Below the pieces are notes generated by a model that worked only from the letters and a program-made list of their open reading frames with translations, did not search any database and was not told the DNA's origin. Of a DNA stretch of 64,000 nucleotides, positions 18,821-52,080 are shown piece by piece. This DNA is from Sphagnum magellanicum (Eukaryota > Streptophyta > Sphagnopsida > Sphagnales > Sphagnaceae), in assembly GCA_021904315.1 (NCBI GenBank), contig CM038911.1, positions 20,557,390 to 20,621,389 on the forward strand, read 5' to 3'. Made by a program: the position numbers and the translations under genes. Every line of letters begins with the position of its first letter. The first letter of the stretch is position 1.

Positions 18821-18826
18821 TTTATA

Positions 18827-19320: not shown

Positions 19321-19321
19321 G

Positions 19322-25449: not shown

Positions 25450-25459
25450 AAAGTGGGAG

Positions 25460-25899: not shown

Positions 25900-26210
25900 C
25901 CATTGACCATTTTCTCCAACTTCTTAAGGCTCACCATGTTGAAGTGCCTGAATTTTTGGTGCCAAAGCGTAGCTCCTTCATTCCAAAACTTTTCCACATT
26001 CGCATTCTCCTTCCAAACAATGACGTTGAAAAGATAAAAGTTTTTCTCCCTTCGTGCTTTCGCCAGAACGGTTGCATGGACATTGTTCATCATATAACCA
26101 TCCTTGTCAAACTCCACTTTCAAGCCCTCCAAAATGAATTTGCTAACGAAAATGAGACTATTTTTCATTTTGGGAACATGAAGAACTTGAATGATGGTTA
26201 TGAGCAACAT
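25900..26210 (-). pseudogene. Element C, protease to pre-integrase piece
   Basis: A minus-strand frame reads VLHVPKMKNSLIFVSKFILEG, KVEFDKDGYM, then LWHQKFRHFNMVSLKKLEKM. This is the copia segment between protease and the integrase zinc domain. The zinc-domain GH has become RH. It ends at the CCATT duplication of element B. The integrase core that should follow is absent on the other side of B. Confidence 0.85.
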
Positions 26211-27137: not shown

Positions 27138-27694
27138 TATGTTTTTTTATTCAAATGAATCGCAAGTGATAAAATTTCAAGTTGAAAAACTTGCTAATGT
27201 TTGAAAACCTCACTTCAAATCTCTCCCACTCAATTGTTATATGTCACAAAACAAAACCTTTACAAAAAAACCTTCAAACATTTAAAAAAATTTCTTGCAC
27301 AAACTTGAAATTTCACTTGAAACTTACAACAATGGCAAAGAATTTTCTTGAAAACCTCTTTTCAACACACCTCAAACTTCAATGTTGAAACTTTCAACAA
27401 TTTGAAGAACTCTCTTCCACACACTTTCAACTTAAAACTTAAAACTTAAAAACTTAAAGAACATTCATCCACACTTGAAAACTTACAACAATTTAAAAAA
27501 GTCTTTTCCACACCTCCCATTCACTTGGAAACATTGCACGCTCCTTGTATGCCACCACTTGGAAATGGACTCCCACTCACTTTGTAAACTAAAAGCCTTC
27601 CCTAAAAAAGATTCTCCCTTTTTTCTATGCAATACAAATTCAAAACCTTTCACTATGTCCTGTTTTAACACAATGTCCTTTCTTTTGCTTAGTG

Positions 27695-27707
27695 TGAGCC
27701 CATAACT
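27695..27707 (-). promoter_or_regulatory. Primer binding site of element C
   Basis: On the minus strand the LTR end CCAATA is followed by AGTTATGGGCTCA, two changes from the GGTTATGGGCCCA site of element B. It fits the same half initiator-tRNA primer. Confidence 0.65.
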
Positions 27708-28165
27708 TATTGGAAACAACTTGGAAACAAGCAAGAAATGAAACATTCAAGGTTCATGAGATCAAACAATTGTATTAACTAAGAAGATTATAAAAGTTTT
27801 ATGTTTCAAATGTTACAATCACAAAACCATGGGTTGTAACAACGAATAAAGCTTGAAGGTTCTATGTGCACTCAAAACCATGAAAGGAAAGAATGAAAGA
27901 CTACTCAAAACCACTCCAATATATACTATCTCCTAACCCTAAAACCATCGCCATTTAACCTTAACCTAGCCGTTATTTAACCCTAATAGCTATCATCTAA
28001 CCCTAGCCACCATCAAGCCTTAATGTAGCCTCCAATTCTAAACCCTAGCCGCCACTATTCAACCTAACCTAACTACTATAAAAATGTGAATATTATTAAT
28101 CCTTTTGATGAATGTTTAACACATTCATCAACATTGGGAATTAAAAATGAATAGTATTTCTAACA
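27708..28165 (-). repeat. Copia element C, 5' LTR
   Basis: A 458-bp LTR on the minus strand, from TGTTAGAAATACTATTC at 28165 to TTTCCAATA at 27708, followed by a primer site and gag. It abuts a Ty3-like gag remnant on its outer side. Confidence 0.9.
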
Positions 28166-28215
28166 ATATATTTATAGTAAACTTCAACAAGTTCATTTTC
28201 CTCCTACTTGATTCT

Positions 28216-28900
28216 TCACAGCTTTAGGTAGATTTGTTCATCATTTTGTCCCATTTTGTAATGTTTATAAAAAACTTGTTCGAATTCTACAAAAATACAA
28301 TTAGGATGGTCTTGTAGAAAATTTTCTCCCCACTTAAATATATTATCACAAAGAATGAAATCGAATGTATTAATGATGTATTCATTAATGGTTTCTTCAT
28401 TATCTTTGATGGCTGTTTTGAACACATGAATGTGAGCATCAAGATTTGTACCCTTGACATAAGTTGGATACAATAAATGTTTTTTCATTGGGGGTCTTAT
28501 TGGTGCAACAATTTGTGGATACCATGATGGCATGAATGTACCCCATCTTGAAATGGGTACAGACAACCTCCATTAGGTGGTTCTTGTGGTATTGTTCCAC
28601 CTCCTAAATCTAGTGGTGGTGAACTTGGTGGGTTATTTCCTCCACCGCCTTTTTTAGCTAAAACTCATGTTGTTCCTTGTTGTGTCATAGTCTATGTTTT
28701 TGTGTTGATTGAACATGTATAATCACATGTATTTGGGTGGTTTGTGCTAGTGGATGTACACCTTTCCGCATAGGATATGTCATTAGATTCCACATCAACA
28801 TCATTAAACTAATCATCAAGTTTATGTTTACCAACATAATCAGTGTTCCCATTGGGAAAACATAAGGGTTTAGGTGAAAGCACATTACAATGGCCAAAAA
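28216..28900 (-). pseudogene. Ty3-like gag remnant
   Basis: The minus-strand frame 28566-28216 contains LLYPTYVKGTNLDAHIHVF, IFKWGENFLQDHP and YKMGQNDEQIYLKL. The same set of blocks (YPMYTPDSDPEVHI, WGENFMQ, MQNDEHVRMM) occurs at 54.8-55.1 kb, so both belong to one gag family with the retrotransposon gag core W..F......F. Upstream on the same strand, a shifted frame has PPSSPPLDLGGG, a proline-rich N-terminal leader, also broken. Confidence 0.6.
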
Positions 28901-29487
28901 ATGTTGTCACAATATATTGCAAAATGTAAATATATTTTACAAATGATTAATATAATTACGAAACTTGATGAAATACTTAATTATATATTGAATATGAATT
29001 GATTACATCATTTCAATTACAATTGAAAAGTTTGACTCGTGTGGTTTCACAAAAAACATATGGATAAGTTTTTCAATCAAATAAACATAAATGTGTTGGA
29101 AAAAAAACTTTTTGTTGAAAGATTACTTTCGTTTGAAATATAATAAGAATTATGTTGGAGGCCTTCGTATCAAAATTCATTTTATGCATTTATCAAAATG
29201 TGAGATGAAATAAAAGAAAATTGCCCCTAAAATAATATACAAAATGTACCAAAACAAAACATTTTCTTGCCCAAAGTGCCCCCCTATAATGTGCGACCCA
29301 TTTGACCCATACCAATATGAAGGTATAATGATTGGAGTTTGTTATTGTTCAAGCCTTTTTATTGTCCTTAAGTGTTTCCTAACTCTTAGATTAATAGTTG
29401 ATAAAATAATAGAATTCACAACCACTAGTGCTTGAGAACTTGTAATTATGGTTGAATTTATGGGTTTCCTATTGAACGATTCTTTTG
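28901..29487. other. Intergenic stretch
   Basis: AT-rich sequence with no recognised gene. It ends at the TTTTG target duplication of the next solo LTR. Confidence 0.35.
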
Positions 29488-30307
29488 TGTCGCAACCCCA
29501 CTTTGGGATAAGTGTGAGGATGAAACTCACACCCCCAAAAGTGGGAAGTTGGAGTCCTCCAAGACTCTTGAAAATTCAAAGCTCGAGTTCAAGGGTCAAA
29601 ACACCTCGCATTGAGGTGTTATTTATATCAATGGAAAGGTCTTGAAGTGTAGATGCCCAAAATGGCTTCACATGTGCCATTTGGACATTTGTAGCCCAAG
29701 TTATGGGCAAAAGAAAGGCCGGGAGTCAAACTGGCAATTTGATTCCCGACCACTAAAAGTCAGGAATCGACCTCTTCCCAACATCTGCTAAAGGAGTGCA
29801 ACATGGCGTTGGAAAGCTCTCAAGGAGAGATACAACTTTGGTTTAAACCTCACTCCAATCAAAGGTCGAAGCTGGGAAATATGAGCTCCCAAAGTCCCGG
29901 GACTCTAACACGAGACAATTTCAGGACTCCTCCTTGGGAGTCCCGGGAAAAAGAGCCATTTGAATGTAGCCTCCATCGAGAGTTGCAGAGAATACTATAT
30001 GGGGGAAGGTGGTGGCTTCCCCCAAGTCCGGGCCGTGGTAAGTCAAGTGAGTCCAAGTGCATGTGGCTTGTCCCAACACCCAAAGGTGTTCCCGAATGTG
30101 ACCTAACCTTCTTGTGGTTGGTTTTGGATGCATATTCGAGTGAGATAATACTTGTCCCTCTTCCTAGTCTAATCCCGGGACTTCTAGCACACCCCTCTAC
30201 CCCCTTTTAGTGTTGGAAGTCGAGAGCGGCCCTCAAGTCCCAACTTTCCGCAATTCAACGTACTTGGACCCTCAAGTGGGTCTAGCAAGGGACTTAGGAG
30301 CGCGTCA
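29488..30307 (+). mobile_element. Solo LTR, family S, copy 3
   Basis: An 820-bp copy starts TGTCGCAACCCCACTTTGGG and ends GGAGCGCGTCA. A perfect TTTTG duplication is present at 29483-29487 and 30308-30312. It has the conserved GAATACTATATGGGGGAAGG box and CTTCCCCC hairpin arm near 29990-30025. No internal domain is present. Confidence 0.9.
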
Positions 30308-30599
30308 TTTTGAGTATTTTGAACGAAATTCCACAATTCATCACCATTGATTATCGAACCTTAAATGTAATTGTTAATGGGTGAAATTGCAACCCCCAAT
30401 TATTACCATTCCCCATAAGGTAAGACCAAAAGAACAAGGTCAACACCTTATTACTCAACAGAAAGAAATTACCCTCATTAGCTTATTTTATTACAACTAC
30501 TCAAGTAGTAAGGGAAAAGTCATACAAAGGCCAAGGAAAAAGGTAAGGGCTACCACTTCATAATAGACCTACTATCCTATCTATAAGTTAATCTAAGGG

Positions 30600-31034
30600 G
30601 GCAAGGGAAGCAAGTAGAACAAGGCAACATGGGAAATAATCATAACCTATGAGTAATTACTCTCCAAGATTCTTAAAATAATGTGTCCTACTCATGGGCC
30701 TCAATAAATCATAATATCGCCCATCAATTACCCAATCTCCTTATGTATTTTTATAAGCATCAGTGAAGGTGTTTGTCACAACATGCATTGGTTTATCACA
30801 AAACATTAGCCAAAATTGCTCCCTATTGGAGCTTTCACATGGCGTAATGGCTTGATGTGTTATAGGTCTATCAAACATTTCAAGCCTTGCAATCTCCCAT
30901 GATGGAGCATGTGATCTTTGATGGCATTCTCCTATGCTAGTTCTCCCTAAACAAACATCATTAAAACATGATAGATGACGATATTTCAACAATGTGGAAT
31001 CTTGACAAAGACCCTCTTCACCTATCCAACACAC
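30600..31034 (-). pseudogene. Mutator-like C-terminal fragment
   Basis: The minus-strand frame 31034-30741 ends with REQFWLMFCDKPMHVVTNTF and TDAYKNT. Past the stop it continues GDWVIDGRYYDLLRPM. The pattern is the same as at 18855-19124, and I read both as the C-terminal region of the MULE family. The frame upstream (31275-31090) on the same strand could be part of it but has no clear motif. Confidence 0.35.
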
Positions 31035-31439
31035 ACCATATGCACTTGAAAGTTAGCTCAATCTCCAACTTTAAAAGTCATAACCTAGTTCATGAGCTAA
31101 CAAAATAGTAAACTAAACACCCACAAGGAGATGGAAGCACCTTATGCATCCCTCTACTTCCAGTCACAGTGGAACGAACAACCATGAGCTTGAGTCCTAT
31201 TGATGTCATTTGCACCAATGTCCTAAAAGAATTTGTTGGTAGTCCTTTAGCATTGGGGTGAGCTACATGGGACATACCTACATCATGGAAATAACCATAA
31301 TTTATAAGAATCGATCTATTGGAAAAGGACTACCTTAGTAATATTAAATTTTGCTCAAACATGACTTAAAACTTGTTATAAATAAGACTTGTTGGAAAAA
31401 AGGATTATTTTATTATATGTCAACACCTTTGCCCAACAA

Positions 31440-31732
31440 TGATTTAACTTGCTAGAAATATGACTTGGTGGTCAAGAGAAAATGGTTTACTTTATGGGAA
31501 TTTTAAGGACTTATTTTCTAGGAAAAAAGACTTTCTTGTTAGAAGCAAATAACACATTTTGTAGGAAAAACACTTACTTGCTACCAAAGGACTTGCTTGC
31601 TAGAAAAATGGCCCATTGCTTTAGGAAATGGATTTACTTGTTGGAAAAAAAGGACTTACTTATTGGAAAAATGGCCATTGTTGTAGGAAAAGGACTTACT
31701 TGCTACCAAAGGACTTGCTTGTTGGAAACAAA
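31440..31732 (+). repeat. Short-unit degenerate array, left part
   Basis: Words such as TAGGAAAAGGACTTACTTGCT and TTGGAAAAATGGCC recur about every 20 to 45 bp. The frame 31482-31739 is an artefact of the repeat. The array is split by the miniature element at 31733-32179. Confidence 0.7.
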
Positions 31733-32179
31733 GGTGTAGTCACACTATTAGGACCCGCTTCAAGTGTAACAACTGCTTAATTTTACACTTTTTTAAGTGC
31801 TAAGTAATGTTCAGTAAACATGTACTATGATGTTTCTAATATGGTATGGAGACACTTGAAAAAGTTTGAAACAAATCTAATGAGTATTGAATACCCAAAA
31901 ACATTTTTTTAGCAATGTAACAAGTGTTTTTAACATTCGAAAAACTCATAAATGATTTTTTGATGGACTTAAAATGATATATTTCTGGGACATTATTTAA
32001 ATCAAACTTTACTATGATAGTATAATGCAACATCTTTGTAAGTCAAAAGGACTTTTTAAAGATTTTGTTAAATTTAAAAATAGACTATCCTTAGGATATT
32101 CCAAAAATATTTTGAAATAAACAATCATTAAACAAATCACCAAGGAGGTGGGTTTGGGTCCTAATAACATTACTACACC
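31733..32179 (-). mobile_element. Miniature element, family M1, copy 1
   Basis: A 447-bp unit has imperfect terminal inverted repeats: GGTGTAGTCACACTATTAGG at the left and, read inward from the right, GGTGTAGTAATGTTATTAGG. Its interior matches 46015-46464 in inverse orientation (for example AAACACTTGTTACATTG and ACTTTGATTTAAATAATGTC). It sits inside a short-repeat array that continues on both sides. ACAAA occurs at both outer flanks, so a target duplication is possible but not certain. Non-coding. Confidence 0.7.
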
Positions 32180-35599: not shown

Positions 35600-36560
35600 T
35601 CATGAAATGACACCTAATGTTTGAACACTACATACAATGCTAATCCAAGGACTTTGTGTGTTGCTAATGATTTCACAAAGCACAAGAAGTGTTATGGGGA
35701 TTATATAAACGCAAAACCGGAAGGACCCCTAGTGCTTGAACATCGAGACATGGTTGATCCAAGGACTCTATGTGTTGGCATTGCTTTTAGAAGCACTAGG
35801 ATTAATGTGGGGAAGTGTAAAAGCACCTTATGGAAGGACTCTTAGTGCTTGAACACTAGGGATAGTGCTAATCCAAGGATTGTGTGTGTTGGGTTTACTT
35901 TCAAGAAACATTAGGACTGTTGTGGGGAAGTGTAAAAACATTTTATGGAAGGACATCTAGTGCTTGAACACTAGGGATGATGCTAATCCAAGGATTGTGT
36001 GTGTTGGGATTGCTTTCAAGAAGCACTAAGATTACTATGGGGAAGTGTAAAAATACCTAGTGGAAGGACACTTAGTGCTTGAACACTAGGGCTAGCATTA
36101 ATCTAAGGACTTTGTGTGTTGGGATTGCTTTTAAGAGGCACTAAGACTGTTGTGGGGAAGTGTAAAAGTAGTTAGTGGAAGGACACTTAATGCTTGAACA
36201 CTAAGGATGATGTTAATCCAAAGACTATGTGTGTTGGGATTGCTCTCAAGAAGCATTAGGACTATTGTGGGGAAGTGTAAAAACACCTAATGGAAGGACA
36301 CCTAGTGCTTGAACATAGGGACAATGTTAATCCAAGGACTTTGTGTGTTGGGATTGTTTTTAAGAAGCACTAAAATTGTTGTGGGGAAGTGTAAAAGCAC
36401 CTAATGGAAGGACACCTAATGCTTGAATACTAGGGACAATGTTAATCCAAAGATTATGTGTGTTGGGATTGTTGCTTTAAAGAAGCTCTAAGACTATTGT
36501 GGGGAAGTGTATAAGGACCTAATGGAATAACACCTAGTGTTTGGCCATAAGTGACATTAG
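35600..36560 (+). repeat. Satellite array, period about 115 bp
   Basis: About eight units are present. The anchor GGGGAAGTGTAAAA recurs near 35808, 35923, 36041, 36153, 36269, 36383 and 36500, that is every 112 to 118 bp. Each unit also has GGAAGGACACCTAGTGCTTG, AACACTAGGGA, AATCCAAGGA and TGTGTGTTGGGATTG. The short frame at 35621-35845 is a reading of the repeat, not a gene. Confidence 0.85.
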
Positions 36561-38190
36561 TAATCCAAGGACACCAAATCCTTAAACACAATGACAGTGT
36601 TAATCAAAGGGCCTTAGGTGGTCATTTCAAGAAGCACAACAAATATTATAAACAAGATGATAAGTGCTACTAGAACAATTATAAATGTTTAACAACATGC
36701 CATAGTACTTAGAAAATGACTGCACATGTGTTGATTACCAATATGTAACAAGGACTTTTGGTCATTTAAATAAGAAAAATGAACATCTAGAGTGATATGG
36801 GCCAAAGACTTTGAATGCTTGAAATGAGGACAAATTTTCTTGTTCAATAACAAATTTTTCATTTCAAGATTCCAAAAAGGTCCAAATCATAGCTAGATAC
36901 AATTGAAGAAGATACATGGCCTTAAAAAATTTGACCAAAGGTGAATTTAAATGGATTCAACTACTTACCAATTGATGAGGCATGGATGCAAGTTGTCACA
37001 ACTTGGAAGGGGTAGTCACTTGATGTAGGTTCCAAATCAGCTTAAAATTTAGTTGTTGGAACAGCAAGATCTAGACTTCACATTTGAAAGTTGAGCTGTT
37101 TCAAAATCCAAAATGCCTCAAAAACATTGCCTATAAGTAATCAATATACAACTTAATCAATTTTTTAACCAACCACATATATGTTTAAACTAGATCAAAT
37201 GACATTCTTGACTACATTTTCCATGTAAAAAAACTTTCATGCAAGATCAATCACTAAGATCTAATTGGAAAATAATTGAAATTCCAAATCAGCGTTGAAA
37301 AAACCTAATTAATGATGCACATGGCATTTGATGTTTTTGGCAATCAATAATTAACTACATCACCTCATGATTTTTCCAGTAGCTCATTTGATATTGAAGA
37401 CGACATAATGTTTGAAATTTTGATGCAAGTCTTGGTTCATTCTCCCCACCCAAAAAAAACTTATCTAACACCTACAATAACAAAACATTTAGTTAAGAAT
37501 ACTGCACAACATGGAATGGACAACCATGATTCAAACCAAATTGAACCCTTTGTGGAATCACCCCTAACATAGAAGCAGATTATGCAACGATTATGTTCAA
37601 AATTCAAAAGTTTAAATGCACATTTTTGACAAAGTCTGATGTTCATTGTAAGGTCCAAAACATGACAAAACAATATAATTTTTCTAGACTATTGAAGTTG
37701 TTACAAATGAAGGACTCATAATGTGTAACATGTCCAAAATCAACCAAGTTTGAAACCTTCTTTTGAAAGCTAAATATGACATCTTGATAATGTAAGTGGG
37801 GGAAGAATTGGCTAAAAATTATGAGCAAAATATGTATGTTTCAATGCAAATGGTTGTGGAAGTTTGTGAGGTTCATGGCTCAAATATGTGCTCTAGCTTG
37901 ATGTAAGTGGTCACAAAATTGGCTCAAAATTGTGGTTAGAAAATTGTGCCTTTGTAATCGATGGAATGAAACTTGTAGCCAATGAATTGTAACAATGTTT
38001 GGACTCCTGCAACTTTCATATAAACTAGTTACCAAAGCCCAACTTACATATACATTGATCACAACAAATTTTATTTCTTTTATGCAAACCCACAATAAGT
38101 AATTTATATATACTTGAATCATGCATTTGGTACCAAACACCAATTTTGAGAACTTTAGCGAAGTTCAATTTTGACAGTGTTTTTTTAGTA
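36561..38190. other. Gene-poor stretch
   Basis: Short scattered frames (37461-37673, 37643-37828, 37880-38143, all minus) share no motif with any known family. Nothing else was seen. Confidence 0.35.
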
Positions 38191-38633
38191 GAGTCCAATC
38201 ACTTTATTAGGAGTCACACATGCCCCTTTAAACCATTGTTTTATTCTTGGAATCTTTTTAATATGTGTTTCAAAAAAATATTTAAAATATTTTAAAAAAA
38301 ATTAATGCTATTATGCTAAGGTGTATATTAAAAAATATTTAAATTTTTTCATTATAAGAAATTTTCAAATTGTGATTTTAGTGTCAAAATTGTTTGAAGT
38401 TGTTTTTATGTAGTTTTTAAATAGTAGTTACAAGAAGTTAAAAGTCCTTATACGTATTTTTCATTAATTAAATTGATTCCAATTTTTTATGACATGTACA
38501 TAATGTATTCACAATAAAATTTTATTTAAATTATTTATTTATTTTTTTTTATTATTTTTTTTTACAACCCAAAATTCAAAAAATTAAGCAATGGTTACGA
38601 CTACTTTTGGTACATGTTAGTATGATTGCACCC
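38191..38633 (+). mobile_element. Miniature element, family M2, copy 1
   Basis: A 443-bp unit starts GAGTCCAATCACTTTATTAG and ends TGGTACATGTTAGTATGATTG plus CACCC. It matches 47197-47632 in the same orientation along its whole length, including AGTCCTTATACGTATTTTTC and ATGACATGTACATAATGTAT. The ends are weakly inverted (GGGTCCAACCACTCTATTA in copy 2 against GGTGTAGTCATACTA read from the right). Non-coding. Confidence 0.65.
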
Positions 38634-41140
38634 AATAAGAAAAAAGAAAGTTTAGATAAGATGTTTATTGTGGGCTAATATAAAATATTTGCATATGATC
38701 AAAAACACTATGTATGAATACTACTGAACATACACATTTCAAAACCTTTGACCATTTGATCTACTCACCTATGAAAGATGTTCATTAGTAGTAAGCTACT
38801 TCATTTCTCCAATCGTCCAGTCTATTCAAAAAACGTGGATCACAAGTTATAAGTCATTTTTCTACTCATTTTATCTATATCGATCCCACTTGATATGATG
38901 CTCACAAGCTACTTCATGTTTTTGATCATCTAATCTACTCAAGATACAAAGAGCTTGCTCCATCAAAGTTTGTTGCTAAGCATGTCCTCTCACATTCATG
39001 TTCTTTGAAAACACCAAATCCTGAAAGCTTGGAAACCCTTACCTCCATTGCTTATAAACATGCTAAATAGTGATAGAAGATCTAATGATGAAGAACATAA
39101 CTTTTGTATAATGTCAATGGAAAAGCTCACTTTTAGCATGTGAAGTCTGTCAAGTAATGACATAGAACATAGTGAAGATGGGTTCAAAATCCAAGCTCTA
39201 GATCACACTGTCACTTTTGTTGGAAACATCTTTTCCCAAAAAAATACCACTCGACCTGTGCAAAGCTAAAGTGCACACGTTTGCTCCTGTCACTTGCATC
39301 ATTCTCAATCATTATATTGTAAACCAAAGGACACACGAGGAAAAAGCTTCAATGCAAATGGTCACCATTGTGTCATTGACAAGCATCTCCTCCTAGTCCA
39401 TTAACACACATGTGGTGGGCTGATCACGAAGCAAACACATGAGTTGAAATGAAAATCTTGGCCAATTGGATTAAAATGGATGACAAGATCTCACTTAATT
39501 ATATATGACTTTGGAATAATGATGAAAAGTTGATCCACATCCATCACATTTCCATGAATCATCATATGAAAACTATTGAATTTCCTTGTTAAGTGGGTCA
39601 AATTATAACCTTCTTACACTCAATTGATTAACATGTGAAGCCCAAATGGAGTTTTTGCATGGGACCAATTGCAACTTGGCCTCATGTTGGGGAGGCTTCC
39701 TTATATAAAAGTCATAAGTTGTCTAATGATCATTGTTGGATAGAATTAATTTTCAAATTTTCATTTCAATTGAGGAAAGAAAGGAAGTTATCCAAAACAC
39801 ACAAAAACAAATTTATGATTTCCTGACTTAATTTCTATAATAATAATCTACAACTTTGCTTTAGACATCATGTCCATTCCACCCCATTTGCATGTCACAA
39901 GGTGAATGCATAGTTGAATGGCTCAAACATGGCAAAAATGATAGTCCTTATGAGTCCAAATAAGATTATTTAAAATGATTCAAATGGACATGGTTGTTGT
40001 TTTAAAAAATGTTATTATTCTAATCTTTGAATAATACATGTTCAATCACCTACAAACCTTCCCAAATTTATGTGAAAATTTATATTTAGTGTGGCTAATG
40101 TTATTTTTTAACTTGGAAGTCCCAAAAGGAAAACCCACAAAGTCCATCAAATAATGGCCCATCTAAAACTTTTTTTAAAATATGCTTTTGGGACAAAAAA
40201 ATTTGAAAAACAAAAATAAAAAATTGCAACTCATATGGACTTATGAAAATATGGTCAAATTTGAACCATTCAAAAGTCCTTAACTATTAAATGGTTACGG
40301 TTTTCAAAAAAAAGATTCATGATATGAATTTATCATTTTGTATTTCATCATATATTGAGTCCTAATAATAAATTTGGAATGTGAATTAATATAAAATTTT
40401 CCATTTTGTGATGTTCCAATTAGATGATTAATCACTATTTTTTTACTTCAAAAGTTCATTACTATTAGAAAATGATTTTTTTATCAATAAATAACCACAT
40501 AGTTATGTTCATAATGAAGTTGTTAGTTTAAATCCAAATCCAATTAGTAGATCTAAGGATATATTAATCACCATATACATTTGAATAAAGGATACATAGG
40601 AAAAAAAAACTAAAATGTCACAAAAGTGAACCACTCAATTGTGCATGTACCCGGCAAAGGACTGGGAAAAATTGTAACCACTCTGAATTTCAAAAAATCA
40701 AAATTATAGATTATTTAAAAATTGAGTGTTTTTTTTTATAGTGGTTATTAGTTCCCTAGAACTCAAAAAAAATTGAATGTAAAAAATTTCATATTTTTCA
40801 AATTAAAGAGCCTTTTGTGAAATGAAAAAATCTTATGTAACACCTACACAACTTTGAAGGTCCTTCACACATTCCATAACTCAAAATTGGAATAAACGAC
40901 AATGTAATTTGAGTTTCTCAACATTCATATTAGTCATTAAGCACAACTTCCCATATTTATCATGACTTTTGATTGGCATCACATGCATATATCTAACAAA
41001 GTTTGCATTTTGGAATATGATCTGACACCCTTTTTGGCTTTGTTTTTATTGTGACTACACTTACTTATATAGTTTACAAAAGTGGAATGTATGATAAAGG
41101 ACATGGGACAAACATTTTGGTTGTAACCATAACCAACCTA
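38634..41140. other. Gene-poor AT-rich stretch
   Basis: No gene, RNA or clear repeat was recognised. Short frames at 38996-39187 and 39635-39826 lack motifs. Confidence 0.35.
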
Positions 41141-41930
41141 GTTGCAACTACTACCTAATATATATGTTATACTAATCTAGTTTACCAACAAGCTATACTA
41201 ACTATTATAGGTAATAGTGTTAATATAAAGATATTAGAACAATAAAATAAAATAATTATTATGCTCTATTATTATATTTATATATTTTAAATTATACCTA
41301 TATGATAAATATGTTTTAGTATAATTAATAGTATAATAAGTATAATTGATAATTAATGATTATAATATATATAATTACACCATTATTTTATTTTATTTTA
41401 TTACATAACTTAGGCTAATGGCCAACTAACTAAATAATTAACCTACCTTAGCCTAGGTGAATTAATTACCTTAGTTTGGTACATTAAGGTAAGCTAAGCT
41501 AATTAGTGTAAGCCTATGTATACTAGCATATATAGCTAGTAATTTAGATAGAGTAACTAGCTTAACTATAATACTAATTTAGGCTAATTAATTATGTGAC
41601 CTAGTTGCCTAGGCTACCTTATACTTTATACATAACTATTTTCTACTAGGATAGGTGAGGTATACTAACATAGGTTTAAATAACATATATAAGTATATTA
41701 ACTTAGACTACCTATATATGTTACCTAACCTATGCATATTATGTATATTAGCTTATACTACCCATAATAATTACTTCTAATTAACCTTGGCTATGATAGT
41801 ATTATATACATATACCTAATATTTTGTAATATTTGCCTAGGTTATAAGGTATATTAGTGTAAGCTTAGGTATCATAAATAATATATTATATTATCTACAC
41901 TAACTTAAGTATGTATTACCTTAAGCCAAT
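41141..41930. repeat. Cryptically simple block of CTA/TAG words
   Basis: About 790 bp is built almost entirely from short words such as CCTAGGCTA, TTAGGCTAA, AAGCTAAGCTA, TATACTA, ACCTTA and TAATTA, in shifting order and without a fixed period. The words on the two strands mirror each other. No coding content is present. Confidence 0.6.
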
Positions 41931-43729
41931 CTCTTTGTGACTTGTTTCCATTTTGTACACTAGTAGTTGCACACACACAACCATATCACCCATATAATAT
42001 ACGATGTCAATTTTGTGGTTGCAAGCATGACCAATCTAATTGCAAATGACAACTAGTTGAATCTAGTTGCAAAATGATGGGTTGCACATGACAAGATTTT
42101 TTTGAGTGATACTTTTGTTTTGAACAACATTTGTGTAACCTTTTTAACATGTTTTAGTTTTGGACTTGTACATAATTTTCATGTACATGTTACATTTTGG
42201 CTGAAATTTTCACCTTGGAGGAAGTGTTGGAGTTTTTTTGGTGTATCTTGTTTTTGGGGAGTTCAAGTTAATGTTGGAAATTTGTTTTGGATAACTTACT
42301 TTTGGATAGTGGATCTTGGATTTTGGGTTTAAGGGCTTGAATCATGGTTTTTTTCCTTGGCTAGGTCTACTTTATGGATGGGTTTAATGAGTTTGGAAGT
42401 TATCTCTAAAATGGAAATCAAAATTTGAAAATTTGAACTTCTTGACAAATTTGAAGTTATAATTTTCGTTCAATCTTGAGTTTGAAGTTGCACCTTTGCA
42501 TTCTCAAGGTAATAAGCTACAAGTTGATTTTCCATTTTTGTAATTGAACTTGCAATATCAACCTAAGCTTGTACTTCAAATTTGAACATTTTTAATTAAT
42601 GGCTTTTCTTTTTTATGTGATGGTCATTGGTCATGAAGCTAAAGTACTTATTAAAACTCAAGGTGTTGCAACTTTAAGTTCAAAGTTAGATGTAAAACAA
42701 ATTGTGCTTTCACTTTTGACTTGGTTTTTCAAAGTGCAAGTTGAAATTGGTGTTGGACCTTAAAACTTAACATTGATACTTATAACATAATATCATATGT
42801 ACATTGCATGAAAATCATAAGGAAAAGAAATATTGATCTTCACAATAATATTAAAAACCATCAACATTATTATAAAAATGATTTCTATAAAACTTCTAAG
42901 AAATTAGTATATTTTTGTTAGAAAAGAAATCAATATATACTAAACCATACTCACAAATAAAGTTCAATATTAAGATTTCATTTTCCAAAATTAAAGTTTT
43001 GTACAGTTGCAAATATTTACATAAATAAAAAATTATTTCTACATAAAAAATTTAAATTAATTTTGAATACCAACATAATATTATTCAAGGAAAAATAATT
43101 GAAACATTAAACTATCTAGAAACATACTAAACAAACATCATAATATCCAATTACACGTTTCAATACATTGTCATAGTCATATTGTTTATTTAAGAAAGTA
43201 AGTAGTGTTATAATAAAAAATAGTTGTATAACATATTCATAATAAGTAAATAAAGATATTAGATACAAAAACATAAAATCTAAAAGTTCACATTGAAAAA
43301 AACCAAATTGTATCCATTAAACCTGAAATTATATGTTAAAAAAAGATTGAGTAAATATTAGTAGCTTTGAATTCTCAATAATTATAATAGTACATTGATA
43401 TATGGGTATTGAAAAAGAATTGAAAATCAAATCTACGAAATAAAACATATCTTGAAATTTCAAGTTTTTATGAAAATATAAATTCACATAATATCATAGT
43501 TTTAATTTCAAGAAAAAAGAGGGACATTGTTACATTTTAAGTCAATAACAAAAAAATGCAATACTTGGAAACATTTTAAAAACATTTTTTGGGCCAAAAT
43601 TTTAACAAATTAAGTAAAGAAGACAAACCTATAAAATCAAAATTTTCACACAATTATGCTTTCAAATACTAATGTAAACATAGATATTGAATTGAATAAA
43701 ATTTCCTTGCAATGACTACTAATTTTCGT
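41931..43729. other. AT-rich stretch upstream of the Helitron-like element
   Basis: No frame with a motif was found; the open stretch at 42102-42332 is T-rich and featureless. The left end of the Helitron-like element may lie here, but no boundary could be seen. Confidence 0.3.
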
Positions 43730-44160
43730 TCTAATGTAGGTGATTGTTTGTTTGATGCAATAACATATCTATTGAAATATTCAATAAGTTATAAAGTGAT
43801 ATGAAAAATAAGTATGTTTCATTTATAATAATGTTTGACATTTGGCACACCCCAAACACTAGAATGCCATAGATGTGAATTTAAATTTGAATTTTTACAT
43901 GATTTGCATTATGGGCAAGCAAATAAGTTTAAATTTTTAAAATGTCAATATTTGCTTTGGATGGTGGGTTGTGGGAGTGATTTCATTACTATTTACTAGA
44001 TATTAAAATACTTACAACACTCAATAAATGTTTGCAATAAAGAAAATGTTGAATAATGGTCAATGTAAAAAAATGAAATTATTGATTTATACCTTTAAAT
44101 GTAGTTTATGGAAATAATCATTTTGAACATGCCAACTATAATTTGTAGTATGTTTAAACC
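43730..44160 (+). pseudogene. Helitron-like element: OTU-type cysteine protease domain (decayed)
   Basis: The plus-strand translation reads NVGDCLFDAITYLLKYSIS at 43733, the block around the catalytic Cys of OTU-domain proteases (GDCLFDAI; usual form DGNCLFxAI). It continues with CLTFGTPQTLECHRCEFKFE and FLHDLHYGQANK, a GDFTAI-like segment read here as SDFITIY, and LKYLQHSINV. In a shifted frame VVYGNNHFEHANY follows near 44101-44140, carrying the histidine expected at the active-site end. At least six stops or frameshifts are present. OTU domains are known upstream of Rep in some Helitron and Helentron elements. The spacing to Rep (about 1 kb) and the shared strand support one element. Confidence 0.55.
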
Positions 44161-45041
44161 TAATTTGGATGTTTACAAATAAATGCTAGTGCAATTTCTT
44201 GCAACAACGATTTAGGATTTTTAAAAAAAAATCTGACAAAATATTATCTAATTCTAAATTCCAATTAATCTTTTTTTTAGTTTCGACATTTTTTTCATTA
44301 GTATTTTCATTAATATTTTTTAAAACATTAAAAATCATCATTATAATTATTTTAAAATTTTAAATATTTGTAATACATCTTAAGCATCTTAAATCCAAAG
44401 ACAAACATTTGATAATATTCCTTCAAAAAAGTTGGAAATGTTTATGATAAGATGATTGAAAACAGTTCATGTAATGAAAATCATTTTGTATACTAGACAA
44501 TACACTACTACAAATAAAATCCTAATTCACTAGATCATTCTCTAGGGTTTTTAGTTAATTAAAAATGTTTTTCATGCATTCAAATCACTTATTTGTTTAA
44601 TGATCAATGATGGGTTGGTGTGGACATACTCGAATCGCTAATATTTTTGGTCATGTATTTGGACTTGTAAATATAATTTTAGGTCATATTTATAGTTATT
44701 TTAGTTGTCATTCAATTTATTATTTACTATTTGTGCTATTTTTATATACTTATATTTTAAGATTTAAAATTATTATTTTTATACATATTTAAATTTGTAT
44801 GTATACATATAAAAATACACATATATATGGTTCGTCAACTTATGGTTGTTGTCTGGATCTAGGTTCGAACCTTGGTCTCCAAATAGACAATTTATCACTT
44901 TTGCCAAACCAACTACCATTTAACTTTGTAATATGAAGTTTCAAAGATTAAGTATATAACAATCACATTTTATGTATGTTAACCATAAGATACATACATA
45001 TGTGTGCGTGTGCACGTGTGTGTAATACCAATTAAGTTCAT
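44161..45041. other. Linker or later insertions inside the Helitron-like element
   Basis: No Helitron domain is recognisable here. A CACTACTACAAATAAAATCC phrase at about 44513 looks like a CACTA-type terminus but has no partner. At about 44828-44885 a tRNA-like stretch ends in the B-box-like CTAGGTTCGAACCTTGG. A GTGTGTGCGTGTGCACGTGT simple repeat follows near 45001. Confidence 0.35.
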
Positions 45042-46014
45042 TATGCAATCACTAGAAAATAAAAATAATGAAATACAATTTACTATGGAATAATCAATGA
45101 AAATAATCAATGAAAAAAAGATAATTTTGAAAAATGATGATGATTCACAAATTTCAAATAAATTGGAAGAAGTTATTGAAGAAAATTGTAGAAATAAATT
45201 AGTGGAAAACATTTTAAATCTTGAACATATGGTTGATGATGACACAAGATCATTGGCAATTGTTGCAATAAAAGTTTTTTGACCATTTGGATTATTCCAT
45301 GACATTCAAAAGAATATAATTTTCCAAAAAACAATTTAGGCCATTCAAGACCATCTTTAGCATGCTTGTATAGAAAAATAATACAAGTTAAATTAACAAG
45401 TGTAAAAAATAAATTTGCATATCACATAACCAATAGATATTTTTAAGAAACTAAAATTTTAACACATTTTATATTGTCCTTTACATAGATTTGCATTCAA
45501 AAAAAGAGTTATTGTATTGAACTTTTACAACAAATATTGTTTCAAATAATGTAAATTTAGACAAAATATTGAAATCTAATTTAGGTTATAAGGAATTAGG
45601 CAATACATGAATATCTCTAGATTATTTATATCGAGTTCAAAAAAATCCATTTGCTATGATTTGACAACTTGGACCTCCAAATTTTTTTGTGACATTCACC
45701 ACATGTATGAAAAATTGGCCTATCTTTGTAGAAACCCTAATTTTTTAATATATTAACATATTGGTAAAAATATAAAAACGAAAAATAATGATTCTTTAAA
45801 CATAAGGGACCTTGTTCAAAATGATCATGTTACATGTATACATTATTACTACACAAAATGAATAATTTTTGAAAAATTATTTGAAAATTTGACATTTTAT
45901 TAAAAAATATATTAACACATGATCATGGATTATATTCAAAGATGCTCCTTGATTTGTAGTTTTTTCAAATTAAAAAATTGAAAATGTACATGTGAGAAAA
46001 CTAAAACGGGTTTA
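45042..46014 (+). pseudogene. Helitron-like element: Rep (HUH nuclease) region
   Basis: The reading starts at 45042, continues through an acidic open stretch (45097-45282, ending LAIVAIKVF), then GLFHDIQ, FPKNNLGHSRPSLACLYRK and NKFAYHITNRYF in shifted frames. It then reads LGYKELGNT, YLYRVQKNPFAMI and QLGPPNFFVTFTTCMKNWP at about 45580-45725. The last block is the Helitron N-terminal signature (RQLGxPTFFxTFTxxxxxWP). Near 45915 the frame gives THDHGLYSK, with the two-histidine motif of the rolling-circle nuclease at 45918-45926. Expected role: nicking and joining DNA at the ends of the element. Many stops are present. The region is cut by miniature element M1 at 46015. Confidence 0.8.
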
Positions 46015-46464
46015 AACACACTACTAGGACCCACACTCACATCCTTGGTGTTTTGCTTAATGATTGCTTATTTAAAAATATTCCAAAAATATCCAAAGGA
46101 TATTCCATTAGTAAGTTTGACAAAATCTTTAAAATGTCCTTTTGACACACAAATATGTTGCATTTTACTATGATAGTAAACTTTGATTTAAATAATGTCC
46201 CAAAAATATGTCATTTAAAGTCCATTAAGGAGTCATTTATAAGTTTTTCAAGTGCTAAAAACACTTGTTACATTGTTAAAAAAATGTTTTTGAGTATTCA
46301 ATACTCATTAGATTTGTTTCAAGCTTTTTCAAGTGTTTACATAATGTGCTAAAAACATTGTTGTATACATTTACCAAACATTTTAAATATTGACTTGACT
46401 TAGCACTTTAAAAAATGTAAAATTAAATAGTTGTTATACCTAAAGTGGGTCTTAGTAGTGTGTT
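46015..46464 (+). mobile_element. Miniature element, family M1, copy 2 (inside the Rep region)
   Basis: A 450-bp unit with good terminal inverted repeats: AACACACTACTAGGACCCAC at the left and GTGGGTCTTAGTAGTGTGTT at the right (one internal mismatch). Its interior matches 31733-32179 in inverse orientation. It interrupts the Helitron-like coding region between the Rep and helicase parts. No exact target duplication was found. Confidence 0.75.
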
Positions 46465-46499
46465 GGGGCCCAAAAATTTTAACCAATTAAAAAATAATT

Positions 46500-46945
46500 T
46501 TTAAAAATGTACAACAAATATTGATTCAATAAGCAATACACATATATCTATCTATTCCATTTTCTCATTCAACAAAAATCATTTCAATTTTTACACACAT
46601 GTGAAGAACAAGACAATTTTTTTGTATTACTACCACAAAAAAATTAGATCAATTACCTCTAACTTCAAGAAAAATCAATTGCAAATCATTATTTGAAAAA
46701 TATAAAAATTGACCTTAAACATTAAAAGACGATATTTAGTAGAATTTGTTACAACTTATGATGCAAAAACATATATTAAACATAATGAAAATAGAATCAT
46801 TCATTGGGTCTCATTTATTATTTGCAAAGATTCAAAAAATCATTATAGAGAATTATTACTTTTATTTAAACATTTTTTGGGCATAGAAGCCAATTGAAAA
46901 TATCGAAAGATGCTTACACAAATGAAAAAGAAAACATTGAAAAAT

Positions 46946-46983
<38 letters not shown>

Positions 46984-47196
46984 CTTCAATATTTCAAATG
47001 AATATGCCAATGAATGGGACAAATTACAATCATGAATACAACAATATTGCAAGATACATGAAATAAATGGTTGGGAAAACATTAACTTGGACAAAGAAAT
47101 GAATATTGACAAACATTGAAAAAATTGAATCCTATGATTTAGTGTATGAACATGCATTTGAAAAATAAATAAACATCCTAAAAATAAAACATTGAT
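46500..47196 (+). pseudogene. Helitron-like element: helicase N-terminal region
   Basis: The frame 46709-46897 reads YLVEFVTTYDAKTYIKHNEN, then RIIHWVSFI, DSKNHYRELLLLFKHF. This is the block before the helicase in Helitron proteins, usual form (D)xxNYYRExLxLF. Past stops, MPMNGTNYNHEYNNIARYMK and YDLVYEHAFEK follow. An (AT)n run at 46951-46982 interrupts the coding sequence and is probably later slippage. The piece ends at miniature element M2 (47197). Confidence 0.75.
46951..46982. repeat. (TA)n microsatellite
   Basis: About 16 uninterrupted TA units inside the decayed helicase region. Confidence 0.95.
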
Positions 47197-47632
47197 GGGT
47201 CCAACCACTCTATTAAGAGCCACACGTGCCCCCTTAAACCACTATTTTTAAAAAAAAATCTTCTTGGAATCTTTTTAATAAGTCTTTCAAAAGAATATTA
47301 AAATTTTAAAAATAATTAATACTATTATGTTAAGGTGTATACTAAAACATATCCAAAAATATGTCATCAAAAATTATTTTCAAATTAGTGTCAAAACTAC
47401 TTTAAGTTGCTTTTATGTAACTTTTAAGTAGTGATTACAAGAGGCTAAAAGTCCTTATACGTATTTTTCACTCATTATATTGATTCAAAATTTTTATGAC
47501 ATGTACATAATGTATTCACAATAACATTTTATTTAAAATTATTTTATTTATTTTATTTATTTTTACAATCCAAATTCAAAAAATTAAATAATGGTTATGA
47601 TTGTTTTTGGTACATGTTAGTATGACTACACC
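47197..47632 (+). mobile_element. Miniature element, family M2, copy 2 (inside the helicase)
   Basis: A 436-bp copy of the unit at 38191-38633, in the same orientation, starting GGGTCCAACCACTCTATTAA and ending TAGTATGACTACACC. It separates the N-terminal helicase block from the Walker A region, so it inserted into an already coding or decaying helicase. Confidence 0.7.
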
Positions 47633-47639
47633 TTGATAC

Positions 47640-48489
47640 ATTTTTATCAACAAATTGTAGATGAATGCATATAATATAAAGAATTATCAGCAAACATGAG
47701 AAAATTAAAAAATGAACCAAAACTTATATTAAATGATATTATTTAAAAATAATAAATATCCACCAATTTCCATTCCATATATTTTTAATAGGCGATGCAT
47801 GCATAGGAAAAACTTTCACACTAATGTGCATCATACAAAACATGTTAAGATATTCTATAAAAGACATCCCAAATGTTGATTCTATAAAAACCAAAATGAT
47901 GAAATTAGATTAAACAAAAAAAGTTGCATTCAACATCAATGGTACAACTATACATTCTACATTTGTTATTCCTTTAAATAAAACTTCGATGAACCAAAAT
48001 CATTAAACAATGAAAAATGTGTCATTTTAATAAAAAATTACGATCAACTATGACTATTAGTTATTAATGAAATATCTTTAGTTGGTAATAGATTTTAACA
48101 TTTGTCGATCATAAATTAGCAAGTATAAGACAAATTCATGATCGATTTATGGGTGGTCTTGATGTTATTATGACCTAAGAGTTTTATTTCGTTTTTCTAG
48201 TTCAAAATTTTTGGATTTTCAAATCACAAACTAATGAATTGAATAGTTTAGGTATAAATTTTTGGCATGAAAATATCAAATGTTATGAATTAAAACAAGT
48301 TATGTGACAAAAATATACAAATTTCATTAACATTTTAAATAGGTTTCAAAATGCTTCACACATTTCTAAAGACATAAATTTCATCAATACAAATTGTTGA
48401 AAACCACCACCCATTACTAGTATATTACCACATTTATTTTACACAAACACCAAAATAACATCACATAACAAATGAATGTTGAAAAAACA
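47640..48489 (+). pseudogene. Helitron-like element: PIF1-type helicase core
   Basis: The reading is YQQIVDECI, ELSANMRKLKNEPKLILNDI, then PFHIFLIGDACIGKTFTLMC with the Walker A box GDACIGKT at 47791-47814 (usual GDAGTGKT, two changes). It continues with NGTTIHSTFVIPLNKTS and a Walker B box LLVINEISLVGN at about 48053-48092 (usual IDE, here INE). Next come FMGGLDVIMT, LNSLGINFWHENIKCYELKQ and YTNFINILNRFQNASH. The order is that of the Helitron/PIF1 superfamily-1 helicase. Expected role: unwinding DNA during rolling-circle transposition. About ten stops or frameshifts are present. Confidence 0.88.
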
Positions 48490-48749
48490 CACTACTACAA
48501 AAACAAGTTATTTTGACTAGAAAATCTAGTGAAGAACTCCATTTGGATAGGTGTAAAAAATACCATCTTATCAATTTGTAGATGTTGATTTGGACCTATC
48601 TTGCATGATTGGGGTGTTCTTTTTGATTGGTAGACTATTGGACTATTTGGTTGGTCATTTTGACTATTACATAGTGGATCATTTGATTAGTCAAATTTCT
48701 ACCCAATTTTGTTATATAGATTATTACTAAAAACATTTTTTGTACAAAT

Positions 48750-49290
48750 AGGTCTAAGCATGTAGGTAGGTAGGTTGTATATGGGTTTAGATAGGTTGTA
48801 AAAAGGCAAGTAGATAGGTGGTAGCCTAACATAGTCTATTTAACTTTCATAACTTAACTTAACCTAACTTACCCTACCTACCTTGACCTTTTAAACATTC
48901 ATATAAGTTACAAGTATTAAGGATTGAACCCCTCATCCCCAATGAGGGTCCAAGTCCTTACCAATGGACTACACCTTTTAAAGTTGACAAATCATGTCAA
49001 GTTTTTTATTTCACTTATTATTTCACATCATTAGTTATGTAGGTAAGTAAAAAAGTTAGGTAATTATTAGGTAGGTAGAGGGGTAGGTAAGTAGGTAATT
49101 TGTAATCCATAGGAAATAGGTAACTAGGTAGGTAAGTGGGTAACTAGGTAGGGATTTTGGATGGTAGGTGGGAAATAGGAGGTAGATATGTATTAGGTAA
49201 GTAGGTTAGCGGGTAAAGATGTAGGATGGTAGGTGGGAAATACAAGGTAGGTATGTAGGTAAATAAGTTGGTATGTAAGTAGGCCTAGGT
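48750..49290. repeat. GTAG/TAGG-rich degenerate simple repeat
   Basis: Runs such as GTAGGTAGGTAGGTTG (about 48763) and AGGTAGGTAAGTGGGTAACT (about 49120) fill two patches, 48750-48820 and 49030-49290, inside the CACTA-like insert. Confidence 0.7.
48921..48975 (-). other. tRNA-like stretch (A and B boxes)
   Basis: On the minus strand the stretch starts GGTGTAGTCCAT and has a box A-like TGGTAAGGACTTGG and a box B-like GGGGTTCAATCC about 30 bases apart, as in a RNA polymerase III internal promoter. The 3' half of the acceptor stem does not pair, so it is not an intact tRNA. It may be the head of a SINE or a tRNA-derived scrap. Confidence 0.4.
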
Positions 49291-49581
49291 TATTGTTTAA
49301 TCTAGTTAGTAGCTATCTTGACCAATTAAGTAACATAAGATGTTCCATTTGACTAGAACACCATTGTCCATCTTGACTAAGGATGCCATTTTGCTTTACT
49401 CAACTTGATTAGATGTTCAATTTGACAAATAGTCAAATATGTCACTTTAGACAAATTTATTAGTCAAAAATACACATGTCATTCAAGCCTCGACCTTGTA
49501 ATCAAAATGTACATGTCCACTAATAAAAAAAGATTTGTTAGTAAACTTGGACCTTTTGAAAAACCATGAATTGTAATAGTG

Positions 49582-50270
49582 AACACTTATTGAAACATTT
49601 AGATTTGTTGCACAAAATAACCATTCTAAAACTTGTCCTTCTCATTTTTAATTATCAATATTCTCAAGTCAAACAAACATTCATCATGAACTACTCAAAA
49701 AAGATATGTTATTAAAATATTTGCTAGAAATTATGCAACATTAAATGGTCTTATATGGTACCTTTCAATACTTGTTCATAAACTTGTTCAAAACATTGAT
49801 ATGGATAAATTTTTACAATCCAAAAAATGGAATCAATGTGAAAATTTAACACTTAAAAACTATAAAAATTTCCTTACACTTGAGAAAAATTGGACACCAA
49901 TTGAACAAAAAATCATAAAAACACAAATAGGATCATTGCAAGAATTCAATGTCCAATTCAACTAAATGCTAGTTGAACCATACATTGTGCACAAGGTTTA
50001 ACACTTGATTATCTTGCTTTTGACTCTCATCATGGCGTAACAAAACATGGATTGGCATATACATACAACATTGTTTCAAATTCATTCAAAAGAACATTTA
50101 TATCTACTTTCTCTGTTGTTCAATAAAAACTTCCAAATTGATTTTGTCGTAAGGAAAAAATGTTTTGTTTTAGATTAAGTGCATGATACAAATTATCAAT
50201 TGCACCTCTAAAATCTTAGCATAAGGAATTCATAATTATATAATATTTAAACACATGTTCTTTGAACTTA
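49582..50270 (+). pseudogene. Helitron-like element: helicase C-terminal region
   Basis: After a decayed stretch with FARNYATLNGLIWY and LEKNWTPIEQKIIKTQIGS, the frame reads TIHCAQGLTLDYLAFDSHHG and TKHGLAYTYN at about 49985-50075. This is the last conserved block of PIF1/Helitron helicases (usual form TIHxxQGxTLDxxxx...xxGxxYTAxSR). A shifted frame continues with SKEHLYLLSLLFNKNFQI at about 50090. The order and spacing tie it to the core upstream of the insertion. Confidence 0.85.
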
Positions 50271-50870
50271 CATTTCAAAGACATTTTAACAAATCCAAAT
50301 ATGTCAGCATCTCAAACCCTTTGCTTAAATGAAATAAGAATTCAAAACATGCACACAAACCAATCAATTTTAAATGTATTTTCAAAAAAGTTGAAGGTTT
50401 TGTCATTTTTCAATGGACATGTGGAACAATGATACTTTATAATTCAATTATGTCCTTAATAAAAACAATCTCTATAACAAATTTAGGCATAGAACTTATT
50501 ACTACACTTTTCAACAAAAATACTTGAAAAGATTATACATCATTGCAACCTATAAACAAACTATTTCATTTCTATTTTAAAAACTACACCAAAACAAATG
50601 CCTACAAATTGCCCAATTACAATAATTTTGGAGATTAACATAAACATGTTAAAATATTCACCTCAATCAACAACATAATTATGAAATTACATAAATAAAC
50701 AATTTTTTTTCCCTCCTAAAAGTACAACGTTTAATAATACACAAATAAATGATGTATGGACTAATGCACCAACACAACAATGTCATGCAATATCAACATA
50801 AGTTTATTAGATAGATCATAAACCTATATATATATAATTTAAATTGCATGATTTTGTTCCTCAATTCTTC
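50271..50870 (+). pseudogene. Helitron-like element: C-terminal EEP endonuclease domain (decayed)
   Basis: Directly after the helicase, the plus strand reads SASQTLCLNEIRIQNMH (usual xLTET in this fold), then GTMILYNSIMSLIKTISIT after a frameshift. It continues MPTNCPITIILEININMLK at about 50600-50650, where the catalytic GDFN would stand (here LEIN). Then come STTFNNTQINDVWTNAPTQQ at about 50720-50780 (usual TQIDHIWTN) and IDHKPIY at about 50810-50830, the terminal DHxPI with its catalytic His. The order fits the endonuclease/exonuclease/phosphatase fold. Such a C-terminal nuclease defines Helentron-type elements. Strongly decayed. Confidence 0.75.
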
Positions 50871-52080
50871 TTACCATAGATTAAACATACAATTTAATTT
50901 TAAAACACAAAATATTTAGAAATTAAACACATATCAAAATTTCAAGTTTTCTAAAAAACAATTTCACATAATGTTGTAGTTTTTAAATTAAAAATCATTA
51001 TTATTAATCTTTTAAAATTACAATAATTTTATATTTTCATGTTAATCATCCCAATCATTTCAATCATTTTGAATAATCAGGTTTAATCATGTTCAATCCA
51101 ACAAATTTAGTCAAAATTATTTCCAAAATGACTAATTTTTCTATTATAACCGTTTTTGTCCATTGTACATTTTTTTAAGTAGATAATGAAAGTTAGTTAA
51201 AAACCCAAGGCACAAACCATGTTTTTGTCATCATGTATGTATCATCGATTAATTTTATATGTATGTTAAATGCTTAAAACATTTTGAAAAAATGTTCCAA
51301 GCAATAGATGTAAGAGACTAATTCATTTTTTAATCATACATGACACCATATGCTTGTAATATTATGAATGCACATGTTTGAACACAAAATGGAAAATAAT
51401 TTTATAAATATTTTTGTTAGCATGTTAACTACCGATAGCAAATTTCAATATTAAACATTTACATCATCTTTCTTCAATCCATAAATGGCCAAGGCCCACA
51501 TGTTTATGATGCCTTTTAAGCAAACATCAACTTTGACAAACCTTGCATCCATCTTTCTAATGTTGGTTGTGGATGAAACATTATAAAAAATTTAAACATG
51601 AAGTTCACAAAAAAATGATATCAAGACAAGACTTTAGTAACACTTTTGAAATGAAGGAATGAAAGGTTTGTACATGAAACTTTAAAGGGACAATGATAAT
51701 AATGGGTAAGTTCATTTTTTGTCTTACATCCAAGACTATGAGTTTTTTTGTTTTTAAGAGGTGATAGATTTGTTTTGTGACATTCATTTTTTGTAGATTA
51801 ATTTTGTTTATTAATATGGTGTTATAGATTTTTTTTAATAGTTTTGTATTGTATTATATTATTTTGGATGTTGGGCATAAAGGGTATTATTTCTTGAGAT
51901 TGGGTTGATTGGATGGGTCTTTGAAGGGTTTGGATCCTACACACTTGTAAGAATTAGGTTAAGATTTAATTCTTTTGTATATGATAATTTTGTATTTGAT
52001 TTGTTGTGTTGTTTATCTATTTAAGTGTGTTTTAATTTTTATATGTTCCATGTTTGTTTAAACCTAGCTAGTTCTAATGC
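50871..52080. other. AT-rich stretch downstream of the Helitron-like element
   Basis: No gene was recognised. The 3' end of the element (a hairpin followed by a short conserved end) should lie here but could not be pinned down. Confidence 0.3.

Follow-up and report, generated by a model that had tools for sequence, protein, structure and literature searches.

The window analysed here is a 64,000-nucleotide stretch of contig CM038911.1 from the peat moss Sphagnum magellanicum, and all positions below follow its numbering. Its plus strand carries, at 43680..50895, a decayed coding remnant (25.6% GC, two inserts included) that runs from an OTU cysteine protease to an EEP endonuclease. From its alignment with intact proteins we read it, with high confidence, as a copy, now dead, of an autonomous Helentron, a rolling-circle transposon that carries an endonuclease. 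A preliminary description of this DNA had listed OTU, Rep, HDH, PIF1 helicase and EEP peptides on one strand in a fixed order, and all of them were found on the plus strand in that order, in an AT-rich tract between 43739 and 50831. The OTU remnant (43700..44142), placed by alignment to relatives, is spread over three frames and retains GDCLF(DAI) starting at 43739, GGLW, and NNHFEHA at 44113. It is followed by a linker (44143..45125) where DUF6570 is expected; this domain is not recognisable in the window copy, and up to ~45.13 kb there is only a gap-rich, low-identity alignment to the metagenomic protein P0004. The Rep region (Helitron_like_N, 45154..45992), matched by a collinear tblastn group of a second metagenomic protein, P0001 (E 2e-33), holds QLGPPNFFVTFT at 45665 (the motif QLGPPNFF(VTFT)) and an HUH-type HDH at 45918-45926. 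The part between Rep and helicase (45993..47217) was placed by alignment to both proteins, and the motif table gave no recognisable Y2 motif in the window copy. The helicase is read in two pieces, the first (47663..48496; P0001 tblastn group E 1e-42) with GDACIGK(T) at 47791, INEISL(VGN) at 48063 and FMGGLDVIMT, and the last (49592..50138), again placed by the P0001 and P0004 alignments, with QGLTLDY(LAFD) at 49992. The EEP remnant (50160..50895) aligns with the Exo_endo_phos domains of both proteins and contains LNTCSLN, LCLNEIR, TQINDVW(TN) at 50739 and DHKPIY at 50814. Still readable are HDHG in the HUH motif, the Walker A GKT and, in the EEP part, the residues of LNT, LNE and DHKPIY; Walker B has NE for DE, and the GDxN motif of the EEP part has become LEIN.

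These motifs are spread across three frames with many stops between them, and the longest open frame in the element region is at most 108 amino acids. We searched for related proteins with a frame-switched reading of 1020 residues in which stops were written as X. Three proteins were found at E<=1 among 4748 candidates, namely P0001 (E 1.3e-123), P0002 (7.7e-73) and P0003 (3.3e-6). P0001 (source jgi) starts without an OTU domain and carries Helitron_like_N, PIF1, DUF6570 and Exo_endo_phos, each over the Pfam cut-off. It is collinear with 45154-50843 by tblastn, and its frameshift-tolerant alignment to the window scored 1939, compared to 214 for the reversed protein and 212, 227 and 235 for three shuffles (39.7% identity, 39 in-frame stops, 52 frameshifts); its first ~100 residues were placed at 39849-40078 across a 4.3-kb gap, a placement taken as spurious. 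P0004 (source lgn) is an intact protein of 2126 amino acids with all domains over the Pfam cut-off (OTU 28.4 bits, DUF6570 45.8, Helitron_like_N 76.7, PIF1 102.5, Exo_endo_phos 29.6 and Exo_endo_phos_2 37.3). Its residues 4-2125 are collinear with 43680-50895 (score 1503; shuffles 141, 152 and 170) at 33.9% identity, with 51 stops, 65 frameshifts and two inserts. Since the scores of both proteins dwarf those of the reversed and shuffled controls, the motif order in the window lies far above chance. P0001 and P0004 appear from these searches to be the closest intact-looking relatives of the window copy.

The element is not alone in its genome. In the 438,994,042 bases (31 contigs) searched with P0001, where the best 30 of 2212 candidates were scored, at least 60 matches were found on 12 contigs. 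The window's own copy is not among the 60 listed, so that this number is a lower bound. Every one of the 60 contains at least one stop, and the suggestion that intact relatives may exist in the same genome was thus not borne out among the matches scored. Eight copies were examined at 20 kb each, and all eight align with P0001 in a frameshift-tolerant manner (scores 2613-3173, 43-46% identity, 18-37 stops); in C2_17682, C17_4897 and C14_18948 the alignment jumps gaps of kilobases to reach the end parts, and these placements may be spurious. In five of the eight, the P0004 alignment starts no later than residue 8 and extends at least to residue 2109, over 5.9-6.9 kb and with no insert above 485 bp, indicating that the domain order was one reading unit. 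Homology to the DUF6570 region is present in other copies. A co-oriented OTU part lies 0.76-1.63 kb before P0001 residue 1 in nine of 12 further copies (scores 91-363, shuffles at most 76), and also upstream in L045 and L046 (176 and 203; shuffles 46 and 51); OTU and EEP domains in separate, unrelated elements were not seen. The OTU reads of three of four copies scanned reached 21.0, 19.6 and 15.2 bits against PF02338 (cut-off 23.3). DNA identity between copies is 66-88% in the longest pairs, and the closest long match of the window copy is C5_19083, at ~70%. The Helentron family is endogenous to this genome and comprises several subfamilies of different age.

A search with full-length P0001 for relatives outside the moss recovered 85 proteins (P0001 itself among them) at E<=1e-6 from 5404 candidates. 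By their precomputed Pfam annotation, 16 of the 85 have an OTU domain and 10 combine Rep, PIF1, OTU and EEP, two of these being from the fish Salarias. The OTU-Rep-PIF1-EEP domain set itself is not new. Other searches with parts of the family returned less: OTU reads from two copies gave no protein at E<=1 among 901 candidates, a profile of seven OTU reads matched no PDB chain at E<=1, and P0001 had four pattern matches in the viral contigs database and seven in the genome contigs database, none of them confirmed. In phages, the matches shown cover at most 32% of P0001 and only its helicase part.

We placed the window copy among these relatives using Rep-helicase trees. The careful tree has 31 rows (eight of 28 prepared moss rows, 20 external proteins and three canonical Helitrons) and the quick tree has 88, including 21 of the 28 moss rows. 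In the careful tree the window lies inside a 27-row clade (100/100), and the quick tree agrees. Outside this clade are two canonical Helitrons of the same genome, one Rhododendron protein and one Fusarium protein. The larger clade was named Helentron because its members carry EEP and OTU domains. Nested within it is a 16-row clade (100/100) of all moss rows and P0001-P0008, with no named animal protein, in which P0001 falls among the moss rows (100/99) and P0008 of the conifer Cryptomeria joins the moss copies in a subset of 14 rows (98/97). P0008 (Cryptomeria japonica; LOC131876217 in its source) has 1365 amino acids and, like the moss copies, has Rep, PIF1 and DUF6570; it is 43% identical to P0001 over 85%, and the listed protein differs from P0004 in having neither OTU nor EEP. 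The Helentron assignment given earlier to this DNA is thus upheld by the full-length relative P0004, by the same order in other copies and by both trees.

The alternative that survives best, though it is improbable, is that the element belongs to the Helitron2 or proto-Helentron type and is not a Helentron sensu stricto. Such a reading gains from termini that are only partly defined. It conflicts with the C-terminal EEP domain present here, which the portions of PMC5148889 and PMC4067079 consulted give as the Helentron hallmark, Helitron2-type elements being described in the former as having no EEP. The sole Fusarium protein in the tree, P0078 (Helitron2-type, and perhaps one of the published FOSC elements), shares Rep and PIF1 with the window copy, but it lies outside the 27-row clade and has no EEP in its Pfam listing.

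The 3' end could be defined in one subfamily. Thirteen tails 3' of the EEP domain were aligned, of which six contain CTTGTT and one CTTGAT. A DNA search with the tail of L017, in which the best 40 of 101 candidates were scored, gave 39 non-self matches among those listed; 19 of them end at the same base and 29 within 286-295. Two other pile-ups of match ends had been traced to breaks in the sequence used as query, and for this reason 12 junctions were read. All 12 end in TTGTT, and in 10 this is followed by sequence that, as judged by eye, is shared with no other junction. The remaining two, L066 and L072, share one flank, which resembles the flank after C12_15350, a copy of another subfamily; either copies have inserted more than once at the same place in a repeated target, or the flank belongs to a neighbouring element. 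The base after TTGTT is T in eight of the 12 junctions, and the element ends in TT. The 3' end of this related, young subfamily is therefore (C/T)TTGTT, which does not match the CTRR 3' end that PMC4067079, in the part seen, gives for canonical Helitrons.

This difference bears on a second alternative, that the window holds a canonical plant Helitron (Rep-helicase with a separate RPA gene) that captured OTU and EEP domains by chance. The genome is certainly rich in such elements: all of the best 150 of 576 candidates scored with the Helitron_like_N profile were over the cut-off and of canonical type, and some lie in stop-free frames of 1000-1500 amino acids (for example C6:8218477-8219022 and C17:18597872-18598417), so that the canonical Helitrons look younger than the Helentrons. 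Those compared here (L001-L008 and Rhododendron P0084) are rolling-circle transposons with Rep and PIF1 like the window element. However, they form a separate branch (100/100), P0084 has neither EEP nor OTU in its Pfam listing, and both domains recur together in other moss copies and in external relatives. Together with the 3' end of the young subfamily, these results leave chance capture very improbable.

The 5' end was approached from the same copies. Position 6551 of C16_10808 and position 1458 of L045 were each considered as the 5' end and rejected, both being breaks in those copies beyond which others continue. Fourteen of 15 copies run on upstream of the L045 break, and matches extend back to where L046 begins, which gives the young subfamily a length of ~9 kb or more. 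In L046 (reverse strand), ~0.9-2 kb upstream of the OTU part, there are three open stretches with GT...AG-like gaps and a CxxC...CxxC pattern. Homology to this stretch, at least 25 above shuffles, was found in three of nine sequences, C12_15350 (159 compared to at most 77), C5_6660 (101 to 63) and C7_15154 (110 to 74), and was not seen in the five remaining copies and the window; the stretch is thus similar across subfamilies, and it has no Pfam or PDB match. As a guess, it might be an RPA-like gene, which some Helentrons carry. Just outside the two ends of the window's coding remnant lies a 67-bp imperfect direct repeat (79%; 43437-43503 and 50919-50983), which may be left over from a head-to-tail neighbour or have arisen by chance, the DNA being AT-rich.

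The decay of the element was examined through its trinucleotides. Within it, CAG and CTG occur six times where 91 are expected from dinucleotides (0.07), and the ratio is 0.17-0.44 in the eight other copies. Along the window, these trinucleotides are depleted to 0.07-0.18 of expected in 43680-50895, 16001-32000 and 40001-48000, compared to 0.69 at 56-64 kb, where a gene for a PORR (plant organelle RNA recognition) protein lies. The observed-to-expected ratio of CpG in the element is 0.23. This pattern fits deamination of putatively methylated CG and CHG sites.

The broken frames and the two repeats inserted in the remnant might also suggest separate elements that landed side by side and were misread as one, an idea we give almost no credence, as P0004 has all blocks in one protein and copies on other contigs keep their order and strand. 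The same holds for contaminating animal, protist or microbial DNA in the assembly: most named non-plant relatives are animals, and Thomas et al. (PMC4067079, in the part consulted) could not exclude contamination for their own plant matches, yet here the plant PORR gene stands in the window on the same contig, the matches are spread over 12 contigs of 17-36 Mb each where lengths are known, and the copies share the depleted CAG/CTG pattern of the host. The plant origin proposed for this DNA is further corroborated by 10 matches over the cut-off to the Dynein_heavy profile in the genome, the host being a moss and not a seed plant. To our knowledge, flowering plants have no dynein heavy chains, and an angiosperm host was set aside once these matches had been obtained.

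Several observations weigh against the Helentron reading or narrow its basis. Hand-joined pieces of the window's own OTU and EEP parts match no Pfam family, an outcome that the preliminary description had named as counting against its reading; the relatives do not share it. Of the profile matches sought in a translation of the window, the one to PIF1 was obtained on hand-joined pieces (43 bits, over the cut-off; 13.2 bits and E 0.065 on a straight read-through), and that to Helitron_like_N stayed below the cut-off (24.4 bits compared to 28.9). The OTU and EEP calls therefore rest on alignment to relatives whose domains pass the cut-off, and the OTU call also on the better-kept copies in the same genome that score PF02338. 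An OTU part was not found in three of the 12 further copies, C16_10808 (which has a break there), C2_17682 and L018 (1.5 kb searched). Both trees were built with LG+G4 and no mixture model, the window and many moss rows were flagged for odd letter composition, and no published Helentron reference protein is among the rows; the tree comparison proposed earlier set the window apart from canonical Helitrons, and its Helentron clade takes its name from the domain sets of its members. As for the termini, the window copy has no CTTGTT among the 13 aligned tails and its own end could not be located. Evidence for a 3' hairpin is weak: a perfect stem stands just before CTTGTT in three of 13 tails, with three different stems, and none was seen in the window, while 3' fold z-scores range from -1.81 to +0.92, with |z|>2 in none of six. 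The 5' end was not found, nor were subterminal inverted repeats, for which the test had started at the L045 break and is therefore uninformative. Lastly, CHG depletion is also strong in the 16-32 kb region rich in transposable elements (0.14-0.18), and is therefore not peculiar to the element.

Helentrons are described, in the sections of PMC4067079 and PMC5148889 consulted, as having a rolling-circle Rep-helicase, an EEP hallmark, in many cases an OTU domain, a 3' stem-loop, subterminal repeats and a preference for TT. Animal Helentrons occur in insects, fish, mites, molluscs and cnidarians. The OTU- and EEP-bearing proteins P0049 and P0054 of Salarias fasciatus resemble the moss family in combining OTU, DUF6570, Rep, PIF1 and EEP in one protein (precomputed Pfam), and P0049 lies in the 27-row clade with the window. 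In contrast to the animal elements, the moss family has a plant host, falls in its own subclade with conifer and metagenomic proteins, is broken in all copies examined, and has the (C/T)TTGTT end in one subfamily.

Helentrons are a known kind of element, and this one comes from a lineage for which a 2014 survey could not exclude contamination. That survey, by Thomas et al. (PMC4067079), states in the part available to us that Helentrons were not detected in most plant genomes, the few plant matches lying on short low-copy contigs and being maybe contamination. In the open-access literature searched, which did not include the HELIANO method paper or Repbase, no account of moss or Sphagnum Helentrons came up. 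The family described here occupies many sites in a plant assembly of chromosome scale, has a plant PORR gene next to it, comprises several subfamilies of different age and shares its subclade with a conifer protein. The many broken copies in the peat-moss genome indicate that elements of this type, best known from animals, were once genuine residents of land plants. It can now be tested whether early land plants already had Helentrons that were then lost, for example in flowering plants, or whether the elements arrived by horizontal transfer. We tentatively propose a combined picture, which may well fail in one of its parts, of a distinct moss and conifer lineage of OTU- and EEP-bearing Helentrons with its own (C/T)TTGTT 3' end and an extra upstream zinc-ribbon-like CxxC gene, either kept since early land plants or spread by horizontal transfer.

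By analogy with related families, the living element would have encoded a single protein of ~2100 amino acids in the order OTU-DUF6570-Rep-PIF1-EEP. The HUH and tyrosine centre of Rep would nick the transferred strand of the element, and the PIF1 helicase would peel this strand off during copying before it is joined at a new site. Nicking of the target or the opposite strand probably falls to the EEP nuclease. The OTU domain probably removes ubiquitin, protecting the transposase or loosening chromatin. Helentron-encoded tegument-type deubiquitinases are active in vitro, and the excerpt seen of the same report (PMC9741609) states that transposon OTU domains had not been assayed; the moss family offers plant sequences with which the functions of the OTU and EEP domains can be studied. 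The element may have come into the moss lineage long ago, been active and split into several subfamilies, and then been silenced by CG and CHG methylation, with subsequent decay through deamination, frameshifts and nested insertions.

Two such insertions stand out in the P0001 and P0004 alignments of the window copy, neither assigned to a strand. The first is a dispersed repeat of ~440-450 bp (47198..47662), which also occurs at 38193-38632 of the window and in upstream sequence of C5_6660 (L029) at 6123-6547, 77-81% alike. The second, of ~1.1 kb (48488..49591), lies inside the helicase and includes a 65-bp tandem repeat at 49129-49257; parts of it are 67-77% alike to repeated DNA in the neighbourhood of copy C2_17682. 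Elsewhere, the window contains a Copia reverse transcriptase in addition to the PORR gene, and Rfam and tRNA scans were empty. Tandem-like self-repeats, with a spacing of ~115 bp and 76-85% alike, were observed at 36001-36572.

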